Source: a virus
Virus record (IMG/VR): IMGVR_UViG_3300035702_000210
Location: 1-20,777 of that record
DNA: 20,777 bases
Direction: 5' to 3' (one strand)
The position numbers and the translations under genes were made by a program. Positions 1 to 20,777 of the stretch are shown one piece after another. The notes under the pieces were generated by a model. The model did not search any database. It was given only the letters and a program-made list of their open reading frames with translations, and was not told where the DNA came from. Each line of letters begins with the position of its first letter. The first letter of the stretch is position 1.

Positions 1-339
1 CAATTAACATTTTCGGGATCATCTACCTTTCAGGATAATATAACAATAACTAATGGATTAACAGGATCAACGGGTAATTTTTCAAGTAATTTATATGTTA
101 CCGGATCACTAATTACAAATAGTTATATAAGCTCTTCATCATATGTTAGTGGATCTACTATATATGGTGATGATATTAAAAAAGATGGTAAAACTGTATC
201 GAGGTGATTAGGAACACAAACTACTGATACACATCCGGCATCACCATACGAGGGGGATTTTTATTTTAATGGTGGGACGAATACTATAACTGAAGGTGTT
301 TATTGTTATGCGGATTCTTCATGAAGAAAACTAACATAA
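1..339 (+). CDS. C-terminal part of a tail-fibre/adhesin-like structural protein (5' end outside the window)
   Basis: The reading frame is open from the first base to a TAA at 337-339 and encodes 112 residues. The sequence is rich in Ser, Thr, Gly and Asn with short beta-strand-like repeats such as NLYVTGSL and SYVSGSTIYG. This style is typical of beta-helical or trimeric phage fibre and baseplate appendage proteins. The C-terminal stretch, with PASPYEGDFYFN and ADSSWRKLT, resembles the ends of many fibre proteins (xSSWRxL). Two in-frame TGA codons, at 205-207 and 322-324, fall where Trp fits well (SRWLG and SSWRKL), so the gene is intact only if UGA is sense. The role as receptor-binding or decoration fibre is inferred from composition; no specific family is recognised. 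A small protein at 11136-11333 has a similar NLWVTGNI segment. Confidence 0.6.
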
Positions 340-343
340 AATA

Positions 344-1117
344 TTGGATATTATTACTACAAATTTTAATAATGAAGATTATATATTTGGTAGAAACACT
401 TATAGTAAATATTTATATAAGTTTATTAATTCATTAAATATAAATAAAAATTATGTTATAAGTGATGGAAAATTTATTAAAGATTATACATATGATAAAA
501 TATTTATAACTCTACATTCTACTTCGACATTATTATTTGATGGAAGAACCCGAGTTGATTGAAGACCGAATACTCATTTCATAACTCATTATAAATCAAT
601 GGTTGATATATTGAAAGAATATGATAAAATAGCTTATTATACAAAAATGGGTATAGATTTGGATATAATACCTGAAGGGGAAACACCAAAAAATGGAAAA
701 TGAATTTGATATGGGAATATATATGAAAATAAAATCGATAATTTTAATTTACTTAAAAAATATTTAAACTTTGATTATATATCTAAAAATAAATTTAATG
801 GTAAAGGTAAAAAATTATCTCATAGTGAATGTTTAAATATTGTTTCTCAATATTCTTATGGTATGGGTGTTGGAATATGTGCTCTTGAAATGTGTGCAAT
901 GAATATTCCAGTATTAGTAGTGGGAAAAAATATTGGTGGGGTATTATATAATAATGAACATTACAATTTTCATATAACATCTAATACAAATTCGGATATT
1001 TCGAATTCTTTGGGATTAAAAAACGATATAGAAAAAATAAGGAGTAATAAACAAGAAATAGAAAAAAATAAATTGACTTTTGATAAAAATGAATGATTAG
1101 ATATTTTTTGTCAATAA
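344..1117 (+). CDS. Glycosyltransferase-like protein (GT-B fold candidate), with four in-frame UGA codons
   Basis: This 257-aa gene is continuous only if UGA is read through, at 560, 701, 707 and 1094 (residues 73, 120, 122, 251). The start is TTG 344, because a TAA at 332-334 blocks the frame upstream and no early ATG exists; the resulting MDIITTNF is a typical N-terminus for these enzymes. Residues about 171-195 contain GMGVGICALEMCAMNIPV, which matches the C-terminal donor-binding region of GT-B glycosyltransferases (Gly-rich turn, conserved Glu, then A-M-x-x-P-V). The segment GKWIWYGNIYE, with both Trp encoded by UGA, is also plausible for this fold. The gene sits 4 bp after the fibre-like gene, suggesting co-transcription and perhaps sugar modification of virion or cell-surface targets. 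Donor and acceptor are unknown. All four Trp codons are UGA; none is UGG. Confidence 0.6.
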
Positions 1118-1150: not shown

Positions 1151-1261
1151 ACGGGTGCTTACCTATTTCGGACTAATGGGAATGGACTTCAAATCCATGT
1201 GCAGATAGGCGGTGTCCAAAGCCGTTGTGCTATTCGGGTTCGAATCCTGACACCCGTGCCA
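1151..1261 (+). tRNA. tRNA with UCA anticodon (UGA decoder), 111 nt, with a very long variable arm
   Basis: The acceptor stem is ACGGGTG (1151-1157) paired with CACCCGT (1251-1257), followed by G73 (1258) and an encoded CCA (1259-1261). The T arm is a 5-bp stem (1234-1238/1246-1250) around the standard loop TTCGAAT. The anticodon arm is a 5-bp stem (1182-1186/1194-1198) around CTTCAAA, giving anticodon TCA at 1189-1191. The D region can form a 6-bp stem, CCTATT (1162-1167)/AATGGG (1175-1180). The variable region is about 35 nt (1199-1233) and can form a hairpin around CGGT/GCCG. A1-U72, G5-C68, G73 and the loop resemble Trp tRNA. The long variable arm and 6-bp D stem resemble Sec/Ser tRNAs, but acceptor plus T stem is 7+5 rather than the 13 bp of tRNA-Sec. 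It most likely serves the UGA codons in this window. The amino acid it carries is not settled by sequence alone. Confidence 0.85.
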
Positions 1262-2582: not shown

Positions 2583-3813
2583 ATTACGCAATCTTAGAGT
2601 ATATAATAAACTTCAACGTGTTTTTAATACGGCAAGACTCATTAATGAGGATATTGAAGCCGAAAAATGCCCCTTTACGGCTAAAGATGCTCCACCTAAA
2701 AAAGATCAATACGGAGATAAAAGAGCTGTTGTTGCAAATTTAGCTAAGGTTACGAAAAGAACAAATCGTGAAAATTCATTTATTATTGAAGGTAGTTTAA
2801 AAATTACCAAAAAGGCTGAGGAAACATTTAAAGAAACAGAATTTTCTATTAAGGAAATCGTGGTTGATTTGACAAAGCTAAAAAATGAAATTGAACAATA
2901 TAATTCTTCTAAAGCCAAAGATATAGAAGAATTGAAAAAAGTGATGCGATATTTCGTTACTTATAAGAATCAAACGGAAAAAGCGATTCAAGAAGCAGAA
3001 CAAAAGAAACAACGAATAGAGCAAGAATTAGAAAAAGAGGGATATTTTTCAGAGTTAGATAGATTAGAAGATGATCATCAAGCTAAATTGGATGCATTAA
3101 GAGATAAATATGATGCCGAAGCATTAGAAGATGCTGAAATGGAAGTTGGTGATGAATTGGATAAACAACGTGAAGGAATGAAATCTATTCAGGAAAAGCA
3201 CTTAGGTGAAATTAGAAAAATACGTCAATTCGTAAAAGAAACTGTTGATCTACCATTGGATATTCTACATAATGTTAAGATATATGCTATGGCGTTAGGA
3301 GCATTGACACAACTATCAAAGAATCCGGATAGAATGCAGATGTCAAAAGAAGGTATCGATAAGATTTTAAATACACCGGAACTTAAAAAGGAATTGGGTG
3401 AGTTTATCGAAACTATTGAATATCAAGATTCGGTAAATATTGTATCATCAAAATTACCACAATTGGGTACGTATTATTCAGAAATGAAGACGAAATATGA
3501 AACTGAAATGAAATCATTTGAACAGGCTAAAGATCAAGTTGATGAAGGAGTATTCAGTGATGTTATAAATCAATCCATGGATAAATTTGTTAAGCGTGGT
3601 AAAGCTTTTTTCAATAAAGCAAAATCAGTCTTATCAACATTTATTTCAAAAATAACTACTGATACTGATGCGATATATAATGAAGTGGAAAAAATGAAAT
3701 TGGGGAATGCGGATTTCAAAACCCGTTTTTCTAAATTGGGAATTAAATTGAATGCTGATGTAAAAAAGGTTCAATTCGAAACATCAAAACAAACTGCGGA
3801 TGAAGTCCAATAA
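2575..3813 (+). CDS. Coiled-coil protein of unknown function, possible virion-associated protein (412 aa)
   Basis: The long open frame has a strongly helical, highly charged middle. Residues about 95-225 are heptad-like (for example KAIQEAEQKKQRIEQELEKE and LDRLEDDHQAKLDALRDKYD). A second helical half follows, with GALTQLSKNPDRM and ELGEFIETIEYQD. A single Cys lies near the N-terminus (EKCPFTAKDAPPKK). No enzyme motif, signal peptide or membrane span is visible. It overlaps the upstream zinc-ribbon gene by 8 bp and the downstream small-terminase candidate by 14 bp, so it is part of the packaging operon. A structural or assembly role fits that position but is inference only. Confidence 0.7.
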   Translation: MNKLRNLRVYNKLQRVFNTARLINEDIEAEKCPFTAKDAPPKKDQYGDKRAVVANLAKVTKRTNRENSFIIEGSLKITKKAEETFKETEFSIKEIVVDLTKLKNEIEQYNSSKAKDIEELKKVMRYFVTYKNQTEKAIQEAEQKKQRIEQELEKEGYFSELDRLEDDHQAKLDALRDKYDAEALEDAEMEVGDELDKQREGMKSIQEKHLGEIRKIRQFVKETVDLPLDILHNVKIYAMALGALTQLSKNPDRMQMSKEGIDKILNTPELKKELGEFIETIEYQDSVNIVSSKLPQLGTYYSEMKTKYETEMKSFEQAKDQVDEGVFSDVINQSMDKFVKRGKAFFNKAKSVLSTFISKITTDTDAIYNEVEKMKLGNADFKTRFSKLGIKLNADVKKVQFETSKQTADEVQ

Positions 3814-4276
3814 ACAAATATTGACAGAATCGATTAACCATTTATATAGATCCATATTAACAGAATCACGGGGGGAATATCATATTTTCTTTCGAAGACC
3901 ATTAATAAAAAAGGGCGTTCGACAATTACGATCTATATGAAGAAATGGTGGTAAAAGTTCTGCCAAACAATGTAAAATGGGCGTACGTAAAAATAGAAAA
4001 GATATTTTATTTGTTATTACAGAATTATTAGAGGATGAACGATTCCATATGTATTTGCGTTCAAATAATTTAGATCGTGATTTAAATCGTGATGTATTAA
4101 AAGCTATTTATTTTTATGTAAAGGGTCATGGGGAAACTGTTGATGGTGATACTAAAGAATTGGATAGACAAGAACGATCAGTACTGTATAAATTAAATGA
4201 TAATTATTTTCAATTGTTTGTGCAAACTGTATTGAAGTTTAGGAGGGATATTTTAAGGAATGAGAAAAAAGAGTAG
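3800..4276 (+). CDS. Candidate terminase small subunit (gp16 position), read through one UGA
   Basis: Under the standard code only the second part, from 3977, is open. With UGA as sense the frame extends to ATG 3800 (MKSNKQILTESINHLYRS...), giving 158 aa, with UGA at 3938-3940 as residue 47 (RSIWRNGG). The length is close to T4 gp16 (164 aa), and the gene lies directly upstream of and overlapping the large terminase (17 bp shared), as gene 16 does with gene 17 in T4. The N-terminal half is basic (FFRRPLIKKGVRQLR). The rest is helical (FVITELLEDERFHMYL, then ERSVLYKLNDNYFQLFVQTVLKF). I see no diagnostic motif, so the assignment rests on position and size. An alternative is an unrelated small protein. 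This is the only gene here that ends in TAG. Confidence 0.5.
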
Positions 4277-5928: not shown

Positions 5929-8121
5929 ATGGCAACATTATCAAAAAATTTAAATAGACTTAGAAATTACTTTTCGGGGAAAACGGTTGTTATTCCGAAA
6001 CCGGATGGTAAGTTAAAACTTAAAACTGTTGATCCCACAGAACGTGCCTATGATACGCTCTGGACAATGAAAAATAATCCTAAGTATAATGCTTTTATCA
6101 ATAATTATGCTTCTCGTACACAAAATCGTATGTATTTGCAGTATGAATATGATTTAATGGAGCGTGATCCTATTATTTCTCGTGCATTGACATTAATATC
6201 GCAAGAAGCCTGTTTAACAGATCAAATGGGTGATATTATTCAAATCGAAACAGAGAATAATAATGTTAAAAAGACTCTTGAACATTTATTTTATGAAATA
6301 ATGAATGTTCAAGCATTATTGCCGTCGTGGATTAGATTAATGTTGAAGTATGGCGATTGTTATTTATATTTAGATCTTCAAGAAGGTGTGGGTATTACTG
6401 ATATTGTTCAATTAGGATCAGCCGATGTTGAGCGTCAAGAAAATCAAGAAACGGGGGAAACCGAATTTTCTATTAATACTTTTGGTGGAGATATTAAAGA
6501 AGAATATATTGCCCACTTTAGACATGCTATTAGTGTAGAATTTTTTCCTTATGGACAATGTTTAGCAGGAGACACAAGAGTAACTACAAACAATGGTTAC
6601 AAAGAGATTAAAGATATAGAAAGGGGAGATATAGTACCTTCTTTTGATACAATAACCCAAACTAAAAAATATTCAAAAGTTCTTGATACTGTTTACTCAG
6701 GTGAAAAGGAAGTGTTTAAAATAGAAACATCACACAATTTTGTTGAAGCTTCCAAAGAACACAAAATATTGGTATATGATAATAATTATAATGAATTTAA
6801 ATATAAAACGGTACCAAATTTAAAAATTGGTGATTTATTAATATTAGATCCTAAAAGTAAAAACTGTACTAATAAAAAAATAGATAAAACAAAACCATTA
6901 GAAAATAAAAATGGATATTGGAATACTATAGATAATATTCCAGATATAGATGATGAAGAATTTGCCGAATTTCTCGGATTTCTAAATTTTGATGAATTTT
7001 TATTGGAACCAATAAAAAATATAGAGTCGTGTGGTAATAAACCAACATATGATATTTTTGTAGAAAATAGTAATCACAATTTTTATGCCAATGGTATTGT
7101 TGTTCATAATTCCATGTTGGAAGCTGTAAGAAAATATTGGAAAATGCAGATGTTATTGGAAGATTTCATGATGGTGTATTATCTATTACGTTCTGTAAAT
7201 CAGAGAGTATTTCGTGTAGATGTTGGAGCATTAGATCCTAATAAAGTACCGGATTTTATTGAAAAGTTTCGACAATTATATAAGAAAAAACCATTAGTGG
7301 ATCAACAAACTGGTGATTATGATATTTATTATGATCCAATGAGTTATATCGAAGATATTATACTTCCAGTCCGTGAGGGTTATGATAATACTGAATTTGA
7401 TGAAATACCTCCATCACCGGAGACAAACATCTTAGAGGGTATTGACGTATTACGTCAAAAAATTATGTCTGGTCTTGGTATCCCCAATTTCTTATTGAAT
7501 TATGAAGAGCAAATTAATAGTCGATCAACTCTATCATCGGAAGATATCCGTTTTGCGAAATTGGTAGAAGGAATACAATCTATTATAGTTTCAGAATTAG
7601 AAAAGATTGCTATTACTCATTTAATTCTACAAGGATATGGTAAGAAAGATATTTTGGATGTTAAGTTATCTTTAACACCACCATCGAATTTACATCAGAT
7701 GGAAAAATTTGAATTGATGGAACGACAAGTTGAAATCGCATCTCAGATGAAAGAAGCCGGATTCCATAGTAAAGAATTTATTTGGAGACAAATTTTCAAT
7801 ATGAGTGAGGATGAGATTGATGAAATGAAGCAGGAGATTCAACAAGACATGGTTGATGAACAAGTCAATGAGGAAACAGTTGCCAATATTGATTTAGAGC
7901 CACAGGGCGAAGGTATGGAAGATACAGAGGATGTGGAAGCTGATACAGAGGATGTGGAAGCTGATACTGGTGGTGGAGAAGGAAGTCAGGGCGGAATGCC
8001 AGAGGGCGAAAAAAGATCAGACCAAGATTCCCGTTCCGGTAGAGCCGAAGAATTACTATCGGATAGAGGATCAGGTGCACCGGAGAGAAGAATTAGTTCA
8101 CCCGATGACTTGGACGTATAA
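5929..8121 (+). CDS. 20: Portal protein (T4 gp20-like), interrupted by an in-frame intein
   Basis: The 730-aa precursor would become a 546-aa portal protein after removal of intein residues 211-394; T4 gp20 is 524 aa. Portal-like segments flank the intein: LMERDPIISRALTLISQEAC, then MLKYGDCYLYLDL and FRHAISVEFFPYGQ before it; SMLEAVRKYWKMQMLLEDF, YYLLRSVNQRVFRVDVG and EDIRFAKLVEGIQ after it. The portal forms the dodecameric ring at the capsid vertex, docks the terminase and nucleates head assembly. The gene follows the large terminase after 1 bp and precedes the prohead genes, as in T4. The C-terminal tail, about residues 660-730, is low-complexity, Gly/Glu/Asp/Ser-rich and contains a short tandem repeat. 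All Trp codons are UGG. Confidence 0.93.
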   Translation: MATLSKNLNRLRNYFSGKTVVIPKPDGKLKLKTVDPTERAYDTLWTMKNNPKYNAFINNYASRTQNRMYLQYEYDLMERDPIISRALTLISQEACLTDQMGDIIQIETENNNVKKTLEHLFYEIMNVQALLPSWIRLMLKYGDCYLYLDLQEGVGITDIVQLGSADVERQENQETGETEFSINTFGGDIKEEYIAHFRHAISVEFFPYGQCLAGDTRVTTNNGYKEIKDIERGDIVPSFDTITQTKKYSKVLDTVYSGEKEVFKIETSHNFVEASKEHKILVYDNNYNEFKYKTVPNLKIGDLLILDPKSKNCTNKKIDKTKPLENKNGYWNTIDNIPDIDDEEFAEFLGFLNFDEFLLEPIKNIESCGNKPTYDIFVENSNHNFYANGIVVHNSMLEAVRKYWKMQMLLEDFMMVYYLLRSVNQRVFRVDVGALDPNKVPDFIEKFRQLYKKKPLVDQQTGDYDIYYDPMSYIEDIILPVREGYDNTEFDEIPPSPETNILEGIDVLRQKIMSGLGIPNFLLNYEEQINSRSTLSSEDIRFAKLVEGIQSIIVSELEKIAITHLILQGYGKKDILDVKLSLTPPSNLHQMEKFELMERQVEIASQMKEAGFHSKEFIWRQIFNMSEDEIDEMKQEIQQDMVDEQVNEETVANIDLEPQGEGMEDTEDVEADTEDVEADTGGGEGSQGGMPEGEKRSDQDSRSGRAEELLSDRGSGAPERRISSPDDLDV
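6559..7110 (+). other. Mini-intein within the portal gene (184 aa), homing endonuclease apparently lost
   Basis: The insert begins with Cys1 in CLAGDTRV (block A) and ends with VVHN before Ser+1 (NFYANGIVVHN|S, blocks F and G). That gives the nucleophile, penultimate His, terminal Asn and +1 Ser needed for protein splicing. A block B-like stretch is HNFVEASKEHKIL, matching the usual xTxxH-type region with Ser for Thr. Between the splicing halves only about 50 residues remain, including EEFAEFLGFL, which looks like the start of a LAGLIDADG block C (xEFLGFLxGDG) without the rest of the enzyme. The intein is therefore best read as a mini-intein derived by endonuclease loss. It interrupts a conserved portal stretch between FFPYGQ and SMLEAV. 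It contains one UGG Trp and no UGA. Confidence 0.9.
7921..7962 (+). repeat. Two exact tandem copies of a 21-bp unit in the portal 3' end
   Basis: Units at 7921-7941 and 7942-7962 are identical and encode DTEDVEA twice, followed by a partial third DT. They lie in the disordered acidic tail of the portal protein and keep the frame, so copy number could vary without breaking the gene. Confidence 0.9.
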
Positions 8122-9258: not shown

Positions 9259-9858
9259 ATGTCTAAACATTTAATAGGTGAAGCGTATAAAGTCAAGTAT
9301 GATCCCAATAAGATCTTACCATTGATCGAAGCCGATGAGCCAATTTTTCTTAATGCATTACTTCAGGCGAAAAGTAAAAAGAATGCTAATCAGAGAGTAT
9401 ATCCCGAATCAGTACTTGTTAGAGAAGATAAAAAATATCAAGAATTGATTGTACAGGGTAATGCTCTTGGAGAATTGGATCACCCACAACGTAATATTGT
9501 AGAGTACAAAACTGCATCACACCGGATTACAAAAACGTGGTGAGAAGGGGATGATTTGCGTGGTACGGTTGAAATATTATCGGGTAAACATTTTCCATGT
9601 GCTAACATTTTACGAGGGGCGTTAAAGCATAATATACCTATTGGATTTTCTTCTCGTGGTTTAGGTAGTGAACATCGCATTGATGATTCTACATATCAGA
9701 TCGGGGAAGATTTTGAATTGATATGTTATGATGCCGTTGTTCAGCCATCGACGTTTGGTGCTTTTGGAAGATTAAATGAACATTCATCCAAAAAAGTATT
9801 ACAAAGAAATAGAAAAATTAATAGAATAAGTTCAATAGTCGAAGAAATTCTAATATAA
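9259..9858 (+). CDS. 21: Prohead maturation protease (T4 gp21-like), continuous through one UGA
   Basis: The standard code would split this gene at TGA 9541-9543. Read as Trp95, the gene gives 199 aa (T4 gp21 is 212 aa). The UGA sits in TKTW-W-EGDDLRGTV, where gp21-type proteases have a Trp-Trp pair (WWxGxxVxG), so the recoded residue is identified by family conservation. Likely catalytic residues of the S80/gp21 protease family are His75 in GELDHPQR and Ser131/132 in GFSSRGLGS. The enzyme is activated inside the prohead and cleaves scaffold, core and capsid proteins at (L/I)xE-type sites. It lies between core genes and scaffold, as in T4. If UGA were not suppressed, a 94-residue fragment lacking the Ser would be made, so the protease depends on the recoding. 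Confidence 0.92.
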
Positions 9859-9863
9859 TACAA

Positions 9864-11048
9864 ATGCCAGAAATAAGAGATCCCAATCAGGAAAATAATT
9901 ATAATAAGTCCAATGTTTTCAATAAACATTTTATTGATTATTTAAAACAAACCGGATGAAATAATGAAGAAGTGCGTAGTGAAATGGTAGCGTTAGTGAA
10001 TAGTATTGTACTTTCTACTAAAGGTAATGTTTCACTACAAAAAAGAATGTTACAATTCTTTAAAACGGCATTGAATATATTAAATATTGAGCTTAAAAAA
10101 TTGAGCCTGAATGATCGTGATGAATTGGTATCAGTAACACCGGAAGATATAACGGGTGATAGTAATATTAACGAAACTGTAAATAACGAAGTAGAAGAAG
10201 CTTGTTGTATGAATAAAAAGAATTTAACGCCCGATGGTGGCGATTTTGGTCGTGATGTTAAAACGTTACTATTTGGATTTAAAAAGGAATTGGAAACAAT
10301 GAATCTTCCAAAATCAAAACAGGTATCTATTATTAGAAAAACGTTTGATTTGGATAATATGCCCAAAGATGATAAGAAGTTGTTATTAGATAAATTACAA
10401 CAAAAAGTTGAAGCGGCTACTGATTATATTAAATCGACAACAAAGCTTCAATTAAATGAAGAAGAAGAGAACGAAGGTGGTAAAGAAAAAAAGAAAGATG
10501 TAGCACCAGAGCCAGAACCCGAAGAGTCAAAACCTTCAAAAAAGGAAAAACCTAAAGAGGATCCAAAGCCGGAAAAATCTGATAAAAAAGAAGAACCGGA
10601 ATCTGAAGAAACTGAATATTCAGAACAGGAGAAAGATGTAAAGGTTACAAATTATAAAACATTCTTTCAAAACTATTTGGTTGATGATATTGGATACACA
10701 CCGGACGGGGCAGAAAAATTTGCTGATTTCGTACTGAATCACGTACGTAAGTTTGCCGATAAAAAAGAAATGCAAAGTAAAATGGTTCGGGATTTGGATG
10801 AACTATTTAATAAAATGAAAAATTCATTTCCAGATACAACTACAGAAAACAAAGCTACCAAAAATTATGATTTGGCTATGGATAATTTATCTAAGATTTC
10901 TGTGCTATTTAATAATTGGGGTAAAAATGAATCAGAAAAATTAAAATCTTCTTTATTAGCATTGGGTAGTGTATCCGAAAAAGTACAAATTCAAAAATCA
11001 GTTCTAAATTCTATTTCCAAATTATCTAAAAAATATAAAAAACAATAA
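9864..11048 (+). CDS. Hypothetical charged protein, possible prohead core/scaffold component (394 aa), one UGA
   Basis: The start is ATG 9864 (MPEIRDPNQENN), 5 bp after the protease stop. The frame passes a TGA at 9957-9959 (residue 32, QTGWNNEE). Without recoding only a GTG or internal start would be available. The protein has a helical N-terminal half with ACCMNKKNL. A Lys/Glu/Pro low-complexity linker follows at about residues 199-258 (for example PEPEPEESKPSKKEKPKED). The C-terminal half is helical (NYKTFFQNYLVDDIGYTPDGAEKFADFV). Such charged linkers are common in proteins packed inside proheads. The gene sits between the protease and the scaffold, but the family is not recognised. It has one UGA and one UGG Trp. 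Confidence 0.7.
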
Positions 11049-16855: not shown

Positions 16856-17350
16856 ATGTATATACAACCAGAAGGATTAACAAGGGGTACTCACCAGCTA
16901 CAAACGAAACACACAAACAGGTTTCTTTTTAGTATCGACGGTGATCCTACAACTAAATTGTTAGTTAAAGAAGCGCCCCGACCATCAGTATCATTTGAAG
17001 ACATCGAAATACCTCATATCAACAAATATAGATATGAAATTGGTCGTCCACGTTACGAATCATTAAACATTACAATGATGGATTATGTAACTCCATCCAC
17101 AGCACAATATGTGTCGGCATGATTAGCAACACAAAGTGAAACATGGACTGGTAAAATGGGTTATTCCATTTTTTATCGCAGACGTTGCACATTAGAAGTA
17201 ATGGGTGGTGTTAACGATGTCGTAGAGCGATGGGATTATTTCAACTGTCATATCGTCAGCGCTGATTTCGGAACCATGTCATGGGATTCTGAAGAACCAG
17301 TACAAATTAATCTCTCAATCCGTTATGATGATTTTATTCATAGATTTTAA
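16856..17350 (+). CDS. 19: Tail tube protein (T4 gp19-like), continuous through one UGA
   Basis: With TGA 17120-17122 read as Trp89 (QYVSAWLATQSE), the gene gives 164 aa, essentially the length of T4 gp19 (163 aa). Without recoding it would be two fragments. Recognisable parts include NRFLFSIDGDP near the N-terminus, RYEIGRPRYESLNITMMDY in the middle, and a C-terminal beta-rich stretch, VERWDYFNCHIVSADFGTMSWDSEEPVQINLSIRYDDF, typical of contractile-phage tube proteins. Hexamer rings form the inner tail tube. The gene follows the sheath gene and precedes a terminator. Three of four Trp codons are UGG and one is UGA, so this abundant virion protein depends on UGA decoding. No Shine-Dalgarno sequence lies at the ATG. 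Confidence 0.92.
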
Positions 17351-18499: not shown

Positions 18500-20777
18500 A
18501 TGCCAGCCAGTGAACATTTATCGGGTTTAAACATTTCTTTGGGGGATTTACCAAATTTAATAAATAAATTTTTTGGTGAAGATGGTGATATGTCGTATGC
18601 TGAAGAAATAAATAAAAATAATAAAAGATTAGAAGAATTATCATCCAAATTTACCAGTTTTTTGAATTTGGAAAAGAAAGTATTGGATAATAATACTGAG
18701 GTTACTAAAATTGCCGAAAGAATATCAAAAAATAATTCGAAAGAATATAAAATTATAAAAGATTGGGTAAAGAAAAATAGAGCCGATGTTAATTGAAAAT
18801 CCGGAGATATAAAGGATATACAAGAACAAAGAAAAGCTACCGAAGAAGCAAGAAAAGTACTTTCGGATATGGCTAAGGAGATTAAAAAATTAAATGAAAC
18901 AAGATATGAATCGAAATTAAAAGAAGATATATCTACTGCTAATGAAGGAAATGAAAGAGGACTTTTTAGTAGATTAAAAGAAAAATATAATGAAAATAAA
19001 CGTGTAATGTTTCGTGGATTGGCACATATAAAAGGTGTCACCGGAACTATTGCGGCTATTGCTCATCAATCAACTGTTGCATTAAATAGAATAGACGATT
19101 TTGCCGATGAAGGTTTTTTTGCTGAGGATATGTATTCTCAATTCAAAAAGACAAATAGAAGAACATTAGAAGAAACTGAATTTTTAAAAATGCAGACTTC
19201 TGGTTTGAAGCAATTTAAAACAGCAATGAATTTACAGAAGTCGTTTGGTTTAATGGCAGATTATTCTTCTGAAACATTGGGTAATATTAGTATGTATAAT
19301 ACTAATTTAAATATTGCCAATGATGAAGCTATGAAATATTTAGAAACCCTTCGAAGTATAACTGGTGAGTCCATAGATCATAATAATGTATTATTACAAC
19401 AATTAGTAATGGTATCTAAAGATTTAGGTATTTCTTATACCAAATTATTAGATACTTTGGGTGAGAATTCTGAATTTTTTGCTAAATATTCCGGTCAAGG
19501 TTTAAAAAATACATTACGTGCTGTTACTGCATCACAACAATTAGGATTAAATTTTGCATCAATAGCCCAATCACTGGATAGTTTAAGTAGTTTAGATGAT
19601 GTATTACAACGTCAAATGAAAGCTTCTATATTTTTGGGTAAAGGGTTTAATTTAATGGAAGCGGCTCGTTTTCAATTTGCCGGACAGACTGATAAAGCTA
19701 TGCGTTCAATAATGGGACAATTGGGATCTATTAGTGATACTAAGTTTGATCAACCCTTTATGCGTAATATATTGGCAGAACAAACGGGCTTATCGGTTCC
19801 CGAAATTGTAAAAATGCGTCAAAGAGCGCAAGATCCGGATGCTATGAGAACGTTTGATCAAAGATTAAAAATGAATCAAAACCTCGAAGATATTAAAAAT
19901 GGTATTAATAAAATTGGTTTTGGTAGAATACTTAAATCTTTTAATATTAATATTTTAGAACCTATACAAAAAATGTTTGGCGAGGGGGCACCACTCATGA
20001 AACCATTAATTGGTATGGTTGATGGTATATTAATGGGTATAGGAACATTAATAAAGGTAGTAAATAAAACATTAGGTCTATTTCATAATTGGTTTGGTGA
20101 ATTTGGTACAACATTGATATTATTGGGTTCATCGGTTGCTGGTATTGGAAAATTGTTAAGTAGATTTTGATTTGCAGATGTAGAACGAAATCAATTGTTG
20201 CGAGAAATAACATCCATGATGGCATCATCTTTGGTTACTGATACGTTTGGGGGTAATGGTGGTAGTAGATTAAAAAGATTTAATGCATGGGGAATGGGTA
20301 GACCGAGAGGAACAAATAAATTGGGTAATAAAAAAATGGCACGGGCAAGTGGTTATGGAATGTTGGCGGGAATGGCGGGAATGGCGGCTGGTGCTCACAT
20401 GTCAACTTCAGATAATGAGGATACTCAATTTTGAGGTTCGGTACTCTCTGGTGCTGGTGCTGGTGCTTCATTTGGTTCCATGTTTACACCATGGGGAGCA
20501 TTAATCGGTGGTATTGGTGGTGGTATAGCGGGTGGATTGGCACATGCTAAAATGAAAGATGGTGGTATTATTCCCGAAGGATTTAAAAATGATACGTTTA
20601 GAGCGAACTTATCTTCTAATGAAGCTGTTATACCATTAGATTCGGATAGGGGTAAAAACATTTTAACAGATTTCATTGGAAATTTAAAGAATAAAGATGA
20701 AAAGAATAAAATTATATCTCCATTTAATATTAATGATTTACCAATAAAAAATGAAATTACATTTGATTCAAAAAATA
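18500..20777 (+). CDS. Tail tape measure protein, partial at the 3' end, continuous through three UGA codons
   Basis: From ATG 18500 the frame stays open to the window end (at least 759 aa) if UGA at 18794, 20168 and 20432 is sense (residues 99, 557, 645). Under the standard code it would break into four pieces. The N-terminal 170 residues are charged and coiled-coil-like (EEINKNNKRLEELSSKF, IKDIQEQRKATEEARKVL). The middle is helical. Around residues 605-690 are Gly/Ala-rich hydrophobic segments (MLAGMAGMAAGAH, GALIGGIGGGIAGG). Then comes DGGIIPEGFKNDTFRANLSS followed by NEAVIPLD, a hallmark of tape measure proteins. The protein sets tail length and is assembled with the chaperone encoded just upstream. 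T4 gp29 is 590 aa, so this one is larger. It has four UGG and three UGA Trp codons. Confidence 0.88.

Follow-up and report, generated by a model that had tools for sequence, protein, structure and literature searches.

The window analyzed here comprises the whole of a 20,777-bp IMG/VR record, which belongs to a T4-like phage, is probably a genome fragment, and carries genes for a terminase, a Portal_T4 protein with an intein, a prohead protease, the Gp23 capsid protein, the sheath, and the tail tube. The intein lies inside the portal gene (5929–8121), with Intein_splicing and Hint matches at about residues 206–394. In IMG/VR, we found no close protein relatives of the window beyond the near-identical contig L002, and a megablast search of the phage collection with the window gave no match.

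A tRNA gene of 111 nt, including an encoded CCA, occupies positions 1151–1261 of the plus strand, on which the parts of the tRNA and the in-frame UGA codons listed here lie, and the same 111 nt are found unchanged in L002, in which a short insertion (1298–1320) lies just downstream. The initial annotation had described a UCA tRNA at this position, and our analysis upholds it as a real gene. The 5′ strand of the acceptor, ACGGGUG (1151–1157), pairs with the 3′ strand CACCCGU, which is followed by the discriminator base G73 (1251–1258), giving a 7-bp acceptor with A1–U72 and G5–C68; position 8 is a C opposite an A, and with the T arm UCGGG-UUCGAAU-CCUGA (1234–1250) the acceptor/T stack amounts to 7 + 5 = 12 bp and not to the 13 bp of tRNA-Sec. 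The D arm (1162–1180) has a 6-bp stem, CCUAUU/AAUGGG, with similar D arms in L075, L076, and L115, and is followed by an anticodon arm, AUGGA-CUUCAAA-UCCAU (arm 1, 1182–1198), the anticodon of which, UCA (1189–1191), reads UGA. The anticodon loop, A1–U72, G5–C68, G73, the 7 + 5 stack, and the possible 6-bp D stem had been annotated initially, as had an extra region of about 35 nt, which measures 35 nt. This region had been likened to a Ser/Sec arm, but it is not a plain arm of that type, as it contains the hairpin GCGGU-GUCCAAA-GCCGU (arm 2, 1209–1225), which is also supported by covariation across related tRNAs. The loop of arm 2, GUCCAAA (1214–1220), matches the tRNA-Trp loop CUCCAAA, and includes the CCA triplet (1216–1218) that forms the tRNA-Trp anticodon and that we propose as an identity element for tryptophanyl-tRNA synthetase (TrpRS). 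The CCA anticodon is thus present in this tRNA, but in arm 2, with UCA in arm 1. The alternatives originally posed, an oddly armed Trp tRNA or a tRNA derived from Ser/Sec, are not supported; what had been taken for a variable arm is another anticodon-like hairpin, with the Trp loop UCCAAA.

At default settings, ARAGORN found no tRNA in the window, and Rfam returned nothing at its gathering threshold, the best match at relaxed limits being tRNA-Sec (RF01852) with 35 bits versus a cut-off of 47, such that the covariance check against the Sec model proposed initially does not assign the gene to that class. Minimum free energy folding of the window tRNA on its own gave no significant result (z = −1.26), which by itself is little informative for a tRNA.

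The window contains 13 in-frame UGA codons, as first counted, versus 48 UGG codons, and its 21 gene ends comprise 20 UAA, one UAG, and no UGA codons. Two of the in-frame UGA codons are located in a fibre-like gene (205–207, and 322–324 at its DSS[W]RKLT end), four in ORF 344–1117 (560–562, two at 701 and 707 within 701–709, and 1094–1096), one each in ORF 3800–4276 (3938–3940), the prohead protease gene (9541–9543), ORF 9864–11048 (9957–9959), and the tail tube protein gene (17120–17122), and three in ORF 18500–20776 (18794–18796, 20168–20170, and 20432–20434), which is cut by the contig end. Homologues show Trp at the two alignable sites, in 3/3 homologues of the protease and at 8/8 aligned homologous residues of the tail tube protein (11/11 residues), in agreement with the initial proposal that this tRNA is the UGA decoder, with UGA read as Trp. 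We note that UGA is the sole Trp codon of the fibre-like gene and ORF 344–1117, which together (window 1–1117) hold 6 of the 13 UGA codons, and that the terminase, portal, capsid, and sheath genes use only UGG.

Twin-arm tRNAs in viral and genome contigs

The initial annotation regarded such a tRNA as unusual, and proposed a search for the same long arm in related phages. The design is no single oddity, being common to at least 55 distinct phage tRNAs in public viral contigs, referred to here as twin-arm tRNAs, in which the acceptor and D arm are followed by arm 1 (UCA), arm 2 (N-UCCA-N-N), the T arm, and G73. Viral contigs were first scanned for an anticodon arm with UCA that is followed, after a long gap of unspecified content, by a T arm, which yielded selC genes, three other phage tRNAs, and one ambiguous match (L027); UCCAA is present in the extra region of all three of these non-selC phage tRNAs, as well as in that of the window tRNA. 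The set of 55 members combines a scan requiring UCCAA with a scan in which arm 2 was left free, minus selC genes, which were recognized by an 8-bp acceptor and CGCC ends, and minus chance matches, which were excluded by the arm 1 stem and the gap length. In the scan with arm 2 unspecified, UCCA was present in the second loop of 33 of the 34 distinct non-selC long-arm UCA tRNAs, the sole exception being L125. The L125 tRNA (2905–3002, plus strand) has a Trp-type acceptor and an extra arm without UCCA, and UGA occurs at Trp positions in this contig.

Matches in L047, L054, L085, L090, L093–L095, L097, and L100 were rejected, with CTTCAAA occurring by chance upstream of an ordinary tRNA. Caulobacter-type selC genes were likewise not accepted as members despite GUCCAAA in their variable arm, as they have CGCC ends and an 8-bp acceptor. 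This GUCCAAA occurs in selC of L142, L146, L155, L164, L168, and L179, all from Caulobacteraceae and related bins, which is presumably due to chance, though common to the group.

The same pattern in genome contigs returned, besides selC, a handful of true members, namely L149 (the same as viral contig L104), L159, L161, and L182, the last three of which lie on contigs binned as Coriobacteriia, Bacillota, and Methanobrevibacter, respectively. In L149/L104, the twin-arm tRNA is found at a prophage-like locus of Bacteroides neonati MS4, in the assembly of a cultured bacterium; the prophage (L104, 734–13879) carries an integrase, a portal, a protease, and a transposase-interrupted terminase along with the tRNA. 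The Methanobrevibacter bin contig (L182, 1403–7992) has 28 tRNAs including one twin-arm tRNA, and may be a misbinned phage. Several twin-arm phages (L042, L044, L053, L057, and L102) are predicted to encode a tmRNA of their own.

The window member is divergent, with linkers of 10 and 8 nt that are longer than in the rest of the family. A covariance model (R1) built from the other members gave it 44.5 bits, which is no higher than real selC genes, and did not separate twin-arm tRNAs from other tRNAs. As the family model scores the window no better than selC, its membership rests on its defining features (the UCCAAA hairpin, G73, A1–U72, and UGA read as Trp) and on its T4-like relatives L115, L096, and L080, which share the window's tail genes and have typical twin-arm tRNAs close to those genes. 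The D arm and T stem most similar to those of the window are found in L075, L076, L115, and L206.

Conservation of arm 2 and kinship with tRNA-Trp

Across the 55 members, G73 is invariant, and pair 1–72 is A–U in 41, G–U in 11, and G–C in 3. The linker between arms 1 and 2 is mostly 2–6 nt, and arm 2 is separated from the T stem by 3–5 nt in 54/55 members and by 8 nt in the window. The stem of arm 2 has on average 4.49 of 5 positions paired, versus 2.55 ± 0.13 when the 3′ strands are permuted, and covariation is seen in all five helices (in a MAFFT alignment made with no fitting to the structure); L036 is an exception, with an arm 2 that lacks the expected stem. Loop positions 33–36 of arm 2 (U33-C34-C35-A36) read UCCA in 55/55 members, an invariance that is due in part to selection by the scan requiring UCCAA, and position 37 is A in 53. 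These comparisons show the twin-arm architecture, its conservation, and its covariation at the level of gene sequences. An intron or assembly artefact, which the initial annotation had named among the findings that would undo it, does not fit an arm that is conserved, base-paired, and covarying.

We considered whether both arms decode, with the tRNA adopting two folds such that arm 1 reads UGA and arm 2 reads UGG. The gene can be drawn as two overlapping cloverleaves with common acceptor, D, and T arms, and either arm alone mostly leaves a recognizable tRNA: with the T loops set to consensus, masking of arm 1 leads ARAGORN to call tRNA-Trp(CCA) in 45/55 members, and masking of arm 2 leaves a recognizable UCA or CUA tRNA in 51/55. 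However, position 32 of arm 2 is G in 32 members (C in 13 and U in 10), compared to G in 0/46 ordinary phage tRNA-Trp genes, and A38 is lost in 9/55, which suggests that arm 2 is not used as a decoding loop on the ribosome. Furthermore, an ordinary tRNA-Trp(CCA) is also present in 6 of 11 near-complete genomes, hosts have tRNA-Trp(CCA) too, and UCA itself can read UGG. Decoding by both arms is thus improbable, and we prefer the reading in which only arm 1 would decode.

The kinship of arm 2 with the tRNA-Trp anticodon arm is apparent from blastn, in which the 3′ half (loop to CCA end) of two twin-arm tRNAs aligns with ordinary phage tRNA-Trp genes, as does that of a third twin-arm type; from this alignment of the 3′ halves, it follows that the loop of the extra arm corresponds to the Trp anticodon loop (U33-C34-C35-A36). 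Where both lie within the same genome, the twin-arm tRNA corresponds to the ordinary tRNA-Trp(CCA) extended by about 21–22 nt, with identities of 82% in L218 and 84% in L053. This suggests that the design originated when an anticodon arm was duplicated in tandem. Some members have a Ser-like D arm (L029) or a 6-bp D arm, from which we infer that there may have been more than one origin, or that the 5′ half may have been exchanged.

The same relationship could be read as an intron or insertion, consisting of arm 1 and the linker, that is removed to give an ordinary tRNA-Trp(CCA), as in silico excision does in the 45 members mentioned above, and introns have been reported in tRNAs of recoded jumbo phages (PMC13037316). 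After such an excision, however, neither UGA nor UAG would have a decoder, arm 1 is UCA or CUA in accordance with the codon that is recoded, and the insert of 17–27 nt is too short for a self-splicing intron, all of which makes removal of arm 1 extremely unlikely.

Meaning of the recoded stop codons

Tallying the residues that face UGA in the twin-arm phages together, with overlap filtering against antisense ORFs and a local-identity test, we obtained W 526, recoded UGA 441, Y 158, F 100, and little else. By comparison of homologous positions, these counts show that UGA stands for Trp in twin-arm phages. They also bear on the reading of these genes as selenocysteine or serine tRNAs, or derivatives thereof, that translate UGA as Sec or Ser. 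Much about the tRNA invites this reading, including the UCA anticodon, the long extra arm, the 6-bp D stem, G73, the best Rfam match to tRNA-Sec, the Ser-like D arm of some members such as L029, and the ARAGORN label “tRNA-SeC” on 51 of the 55 family members. Nevertheless, the acceptor/T stack has 12 bp and not 13 (8 + 5 in bacteria), the Rfam score falls below the gathering cut-off, and UGA sites align with Trp, with Ser opposite UGA in just 13 of about 1650 aligned pairs, such that a Sec or Ser identity is highly unlikely.

With arm 1 relaxed to CTNNAAA, a scan recovered 30 twin tRNAs carrying UCA and a single one carrying CUA, in the 146-kb phage L218, and no CUA or UUA twin besides L218 emerged from a further scan. 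In this phage, arm 1 is CUA and the CCA of arm 2 is kept; ARAGORN labels the tRNA as tRNA-Pyl, and it adjoins an ordinary tRNA-Trp(CCA). We found no other CUA tRNA in this genome, and no TrpRS in the record. Having predicted ahead of the codon tally that UAG would be Trp in L218, we obtained 179 aligned pairs, in which UAG faces W 56, recoded UGA 48, Y 24, F 7, and Q 2 times, that is, W or recoded UGA in 104/179. This profile resembles that of the phage's own UGG codons (W 53%, UGA 6%, Y 12%, and F 8%), and is unlike that of its own Gln codons (Q 43%, E 10%, and K 8%). The aligned ORFs of L218 yielded a single UGA pair, corresponding to almost no in-frame UGA. As judged from these alignments, UAG stands for Trp where arm 1 is CUA.

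A CUA anticodon alone turns tRNA-Trp into a Gln acceptor (PMC9976931), and bacterial TrpRS contacts C34, C35, A36, and G73 (PMC12135181). The Trp identity of the L218 twin must thus come from elsewhere than arm 1, and the invariant CCA makes arm 2 the obvious and most likely source. It could be argued that arm 2 is instead structural or a decoy (a shield against defences that cleave tRNAs, or a signal for processing), and that arm 1 and the acceptor suffice for TrpRS, given that UCA keeps C35 and A36, which are read most by TrpRS (PMC12135181), and that single-arm UCA tRNA-Trp genes exist in phages. However, this would leave unexplained both the reading of UAG as Trp with a CUA arm 1 in L218 and the exact invariance of UCCA while positions 32 and 38 and the stem vary. 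A purely structural or decoy role is thus improbable, and we favor arm 2 as the putative carrier of Trp identity.

Proposed division of decoding and aminoacyl identity

In all tRNAs known to us, the codon-reading anticodon also, for many synthetases, signals the amino acid, and because of this double role a change of anticodon to match a stop codon often alters or kills charging. The twin-arm phages appear to split decoding and identity by means of a second anticodon arm. We are confident, if not certain, that the window tRNA is a two-anticodon tryptophan tRNA in which codon and amino acid would be set by two different arms. It is likely, moreover, that these tRNAs form a widespread natural class with decoding and aminoacyl identity on two anticodon arms, of which arm 1 is exchangeable (UCA/CUA), and the CCA of arm 2 keeps Trp for the host synthetase.

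In the mechanism we propose, arm 1 (UCA), located at the place of an anticodon arm relative to the D arm, would read UGA on the ribosome by pairing. Arm 2, with the retained tRNA-Trp loop (UCCAA), lies mostly at the place of an anticodon arm relative to the T arm, and would, together with G73 and usually A1–U72, present CCA to the host tryptophanyl-tRNA synthetase, which would touch this arm. In most members, the D arm and arm 1 are in the usual register to each other, as are arm 2 and the T arm, such that either of the two arms could take the in-line stacked position of the anticodon branch. We thus envisage two conformers, one for TrpRS, perhaps with arm 2 under the D stem and arm 1 swung out, and the reverse on the ribosome. 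With separate arms for codon and amino acid, a phage could reassign a stop codon without a TrpRS of its own.

No TrpRS gene was found in the 52 records searched (50 with a UCA twin, the record with the CUA twin, and L206), many of which are fragments, and charging would therefore fall to the host. TrpRS is present in 0/50 UCA-twin phages, compared to 2/13 phages with a single-arm UCA tRNA, a difference that is suggestive only and too small by itself. Some phages with a single-arm UCA tRNA also have no TrpRS, and arm 2 is thus not needed everywhere. Taken with the L218 exchange, the comparisons strongly suggest that arm 2 is an identity element for host TrpRS, and that twin-arm tRNAs are tryptophan tRNAs of a new architecture. 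If true, this would explain stop-to-Trp reassignment with host TrpRS alone, and nature would provide a template for tRNAs that read stop codons yet retain their cognate synthetase.

Compared to bacterial tRNA-Trp(CCA), with which they share G73, usually A1–U72, the T arm, the acceptor, and the Trp anticodon loop (which in the twin is in arm 2), twin-arm tRNAs have an extra UCA or CUA anticodon arm that separates the D arm from the Trp arm. The UCA anticodon, a long arm in the variable position, and sometimes a 6-bp D stem are shared with tRNA-Sec (selC) and type II tRNAs, from which they differ in the 7 + 5 stack, in that the long arm forms an anticodon hairpin whose UCCA loop is invariant, and in their amino acid, Trp. 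Allo-tRNAs and selC* tRNA-Cys (PMC7609411) are also natural tRNAs of unusual build, some with stop anticodons including UCA, but have an 8/4 or 9/3 acceptor branch, and a second anticodon arm is not described in that review. The open-access literature reports phages in which UGA is Trp, along with suppressor tRNAs, and we found no precedent there for a two-anticodon tRNA, which is weak evidence as most subscription journals and preprints fall outside this scope. The suppressor tRNA-Trp(UCA) of code-4 phages, such as opal-recoded zeta crAss-like phages (PMC12386605), is likewise phage-encoded, has a UCA anticodon, and reads UGA as Trp; it is described as an ordinary single-anticodon tRNA, whereas twin-arm tRNAs add a second arm with a CCA loop. 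The same study lists opal-recoded phages in which no suppressor tRNA was found, some of which could be explained by twin-arm tRNAs that standard software misses. On the reading of arm 2 proposed here, many phage “tRNA-SeC” calls and one “tRNA-Pyl” call would be wrong. Separately, two UCA-twin phages, L253 (16294–16370) and L261 (1394–1466), have an extra short CUA tRNA, called tRNA-Pyl, and UAG is scarce inside their aligned genes.
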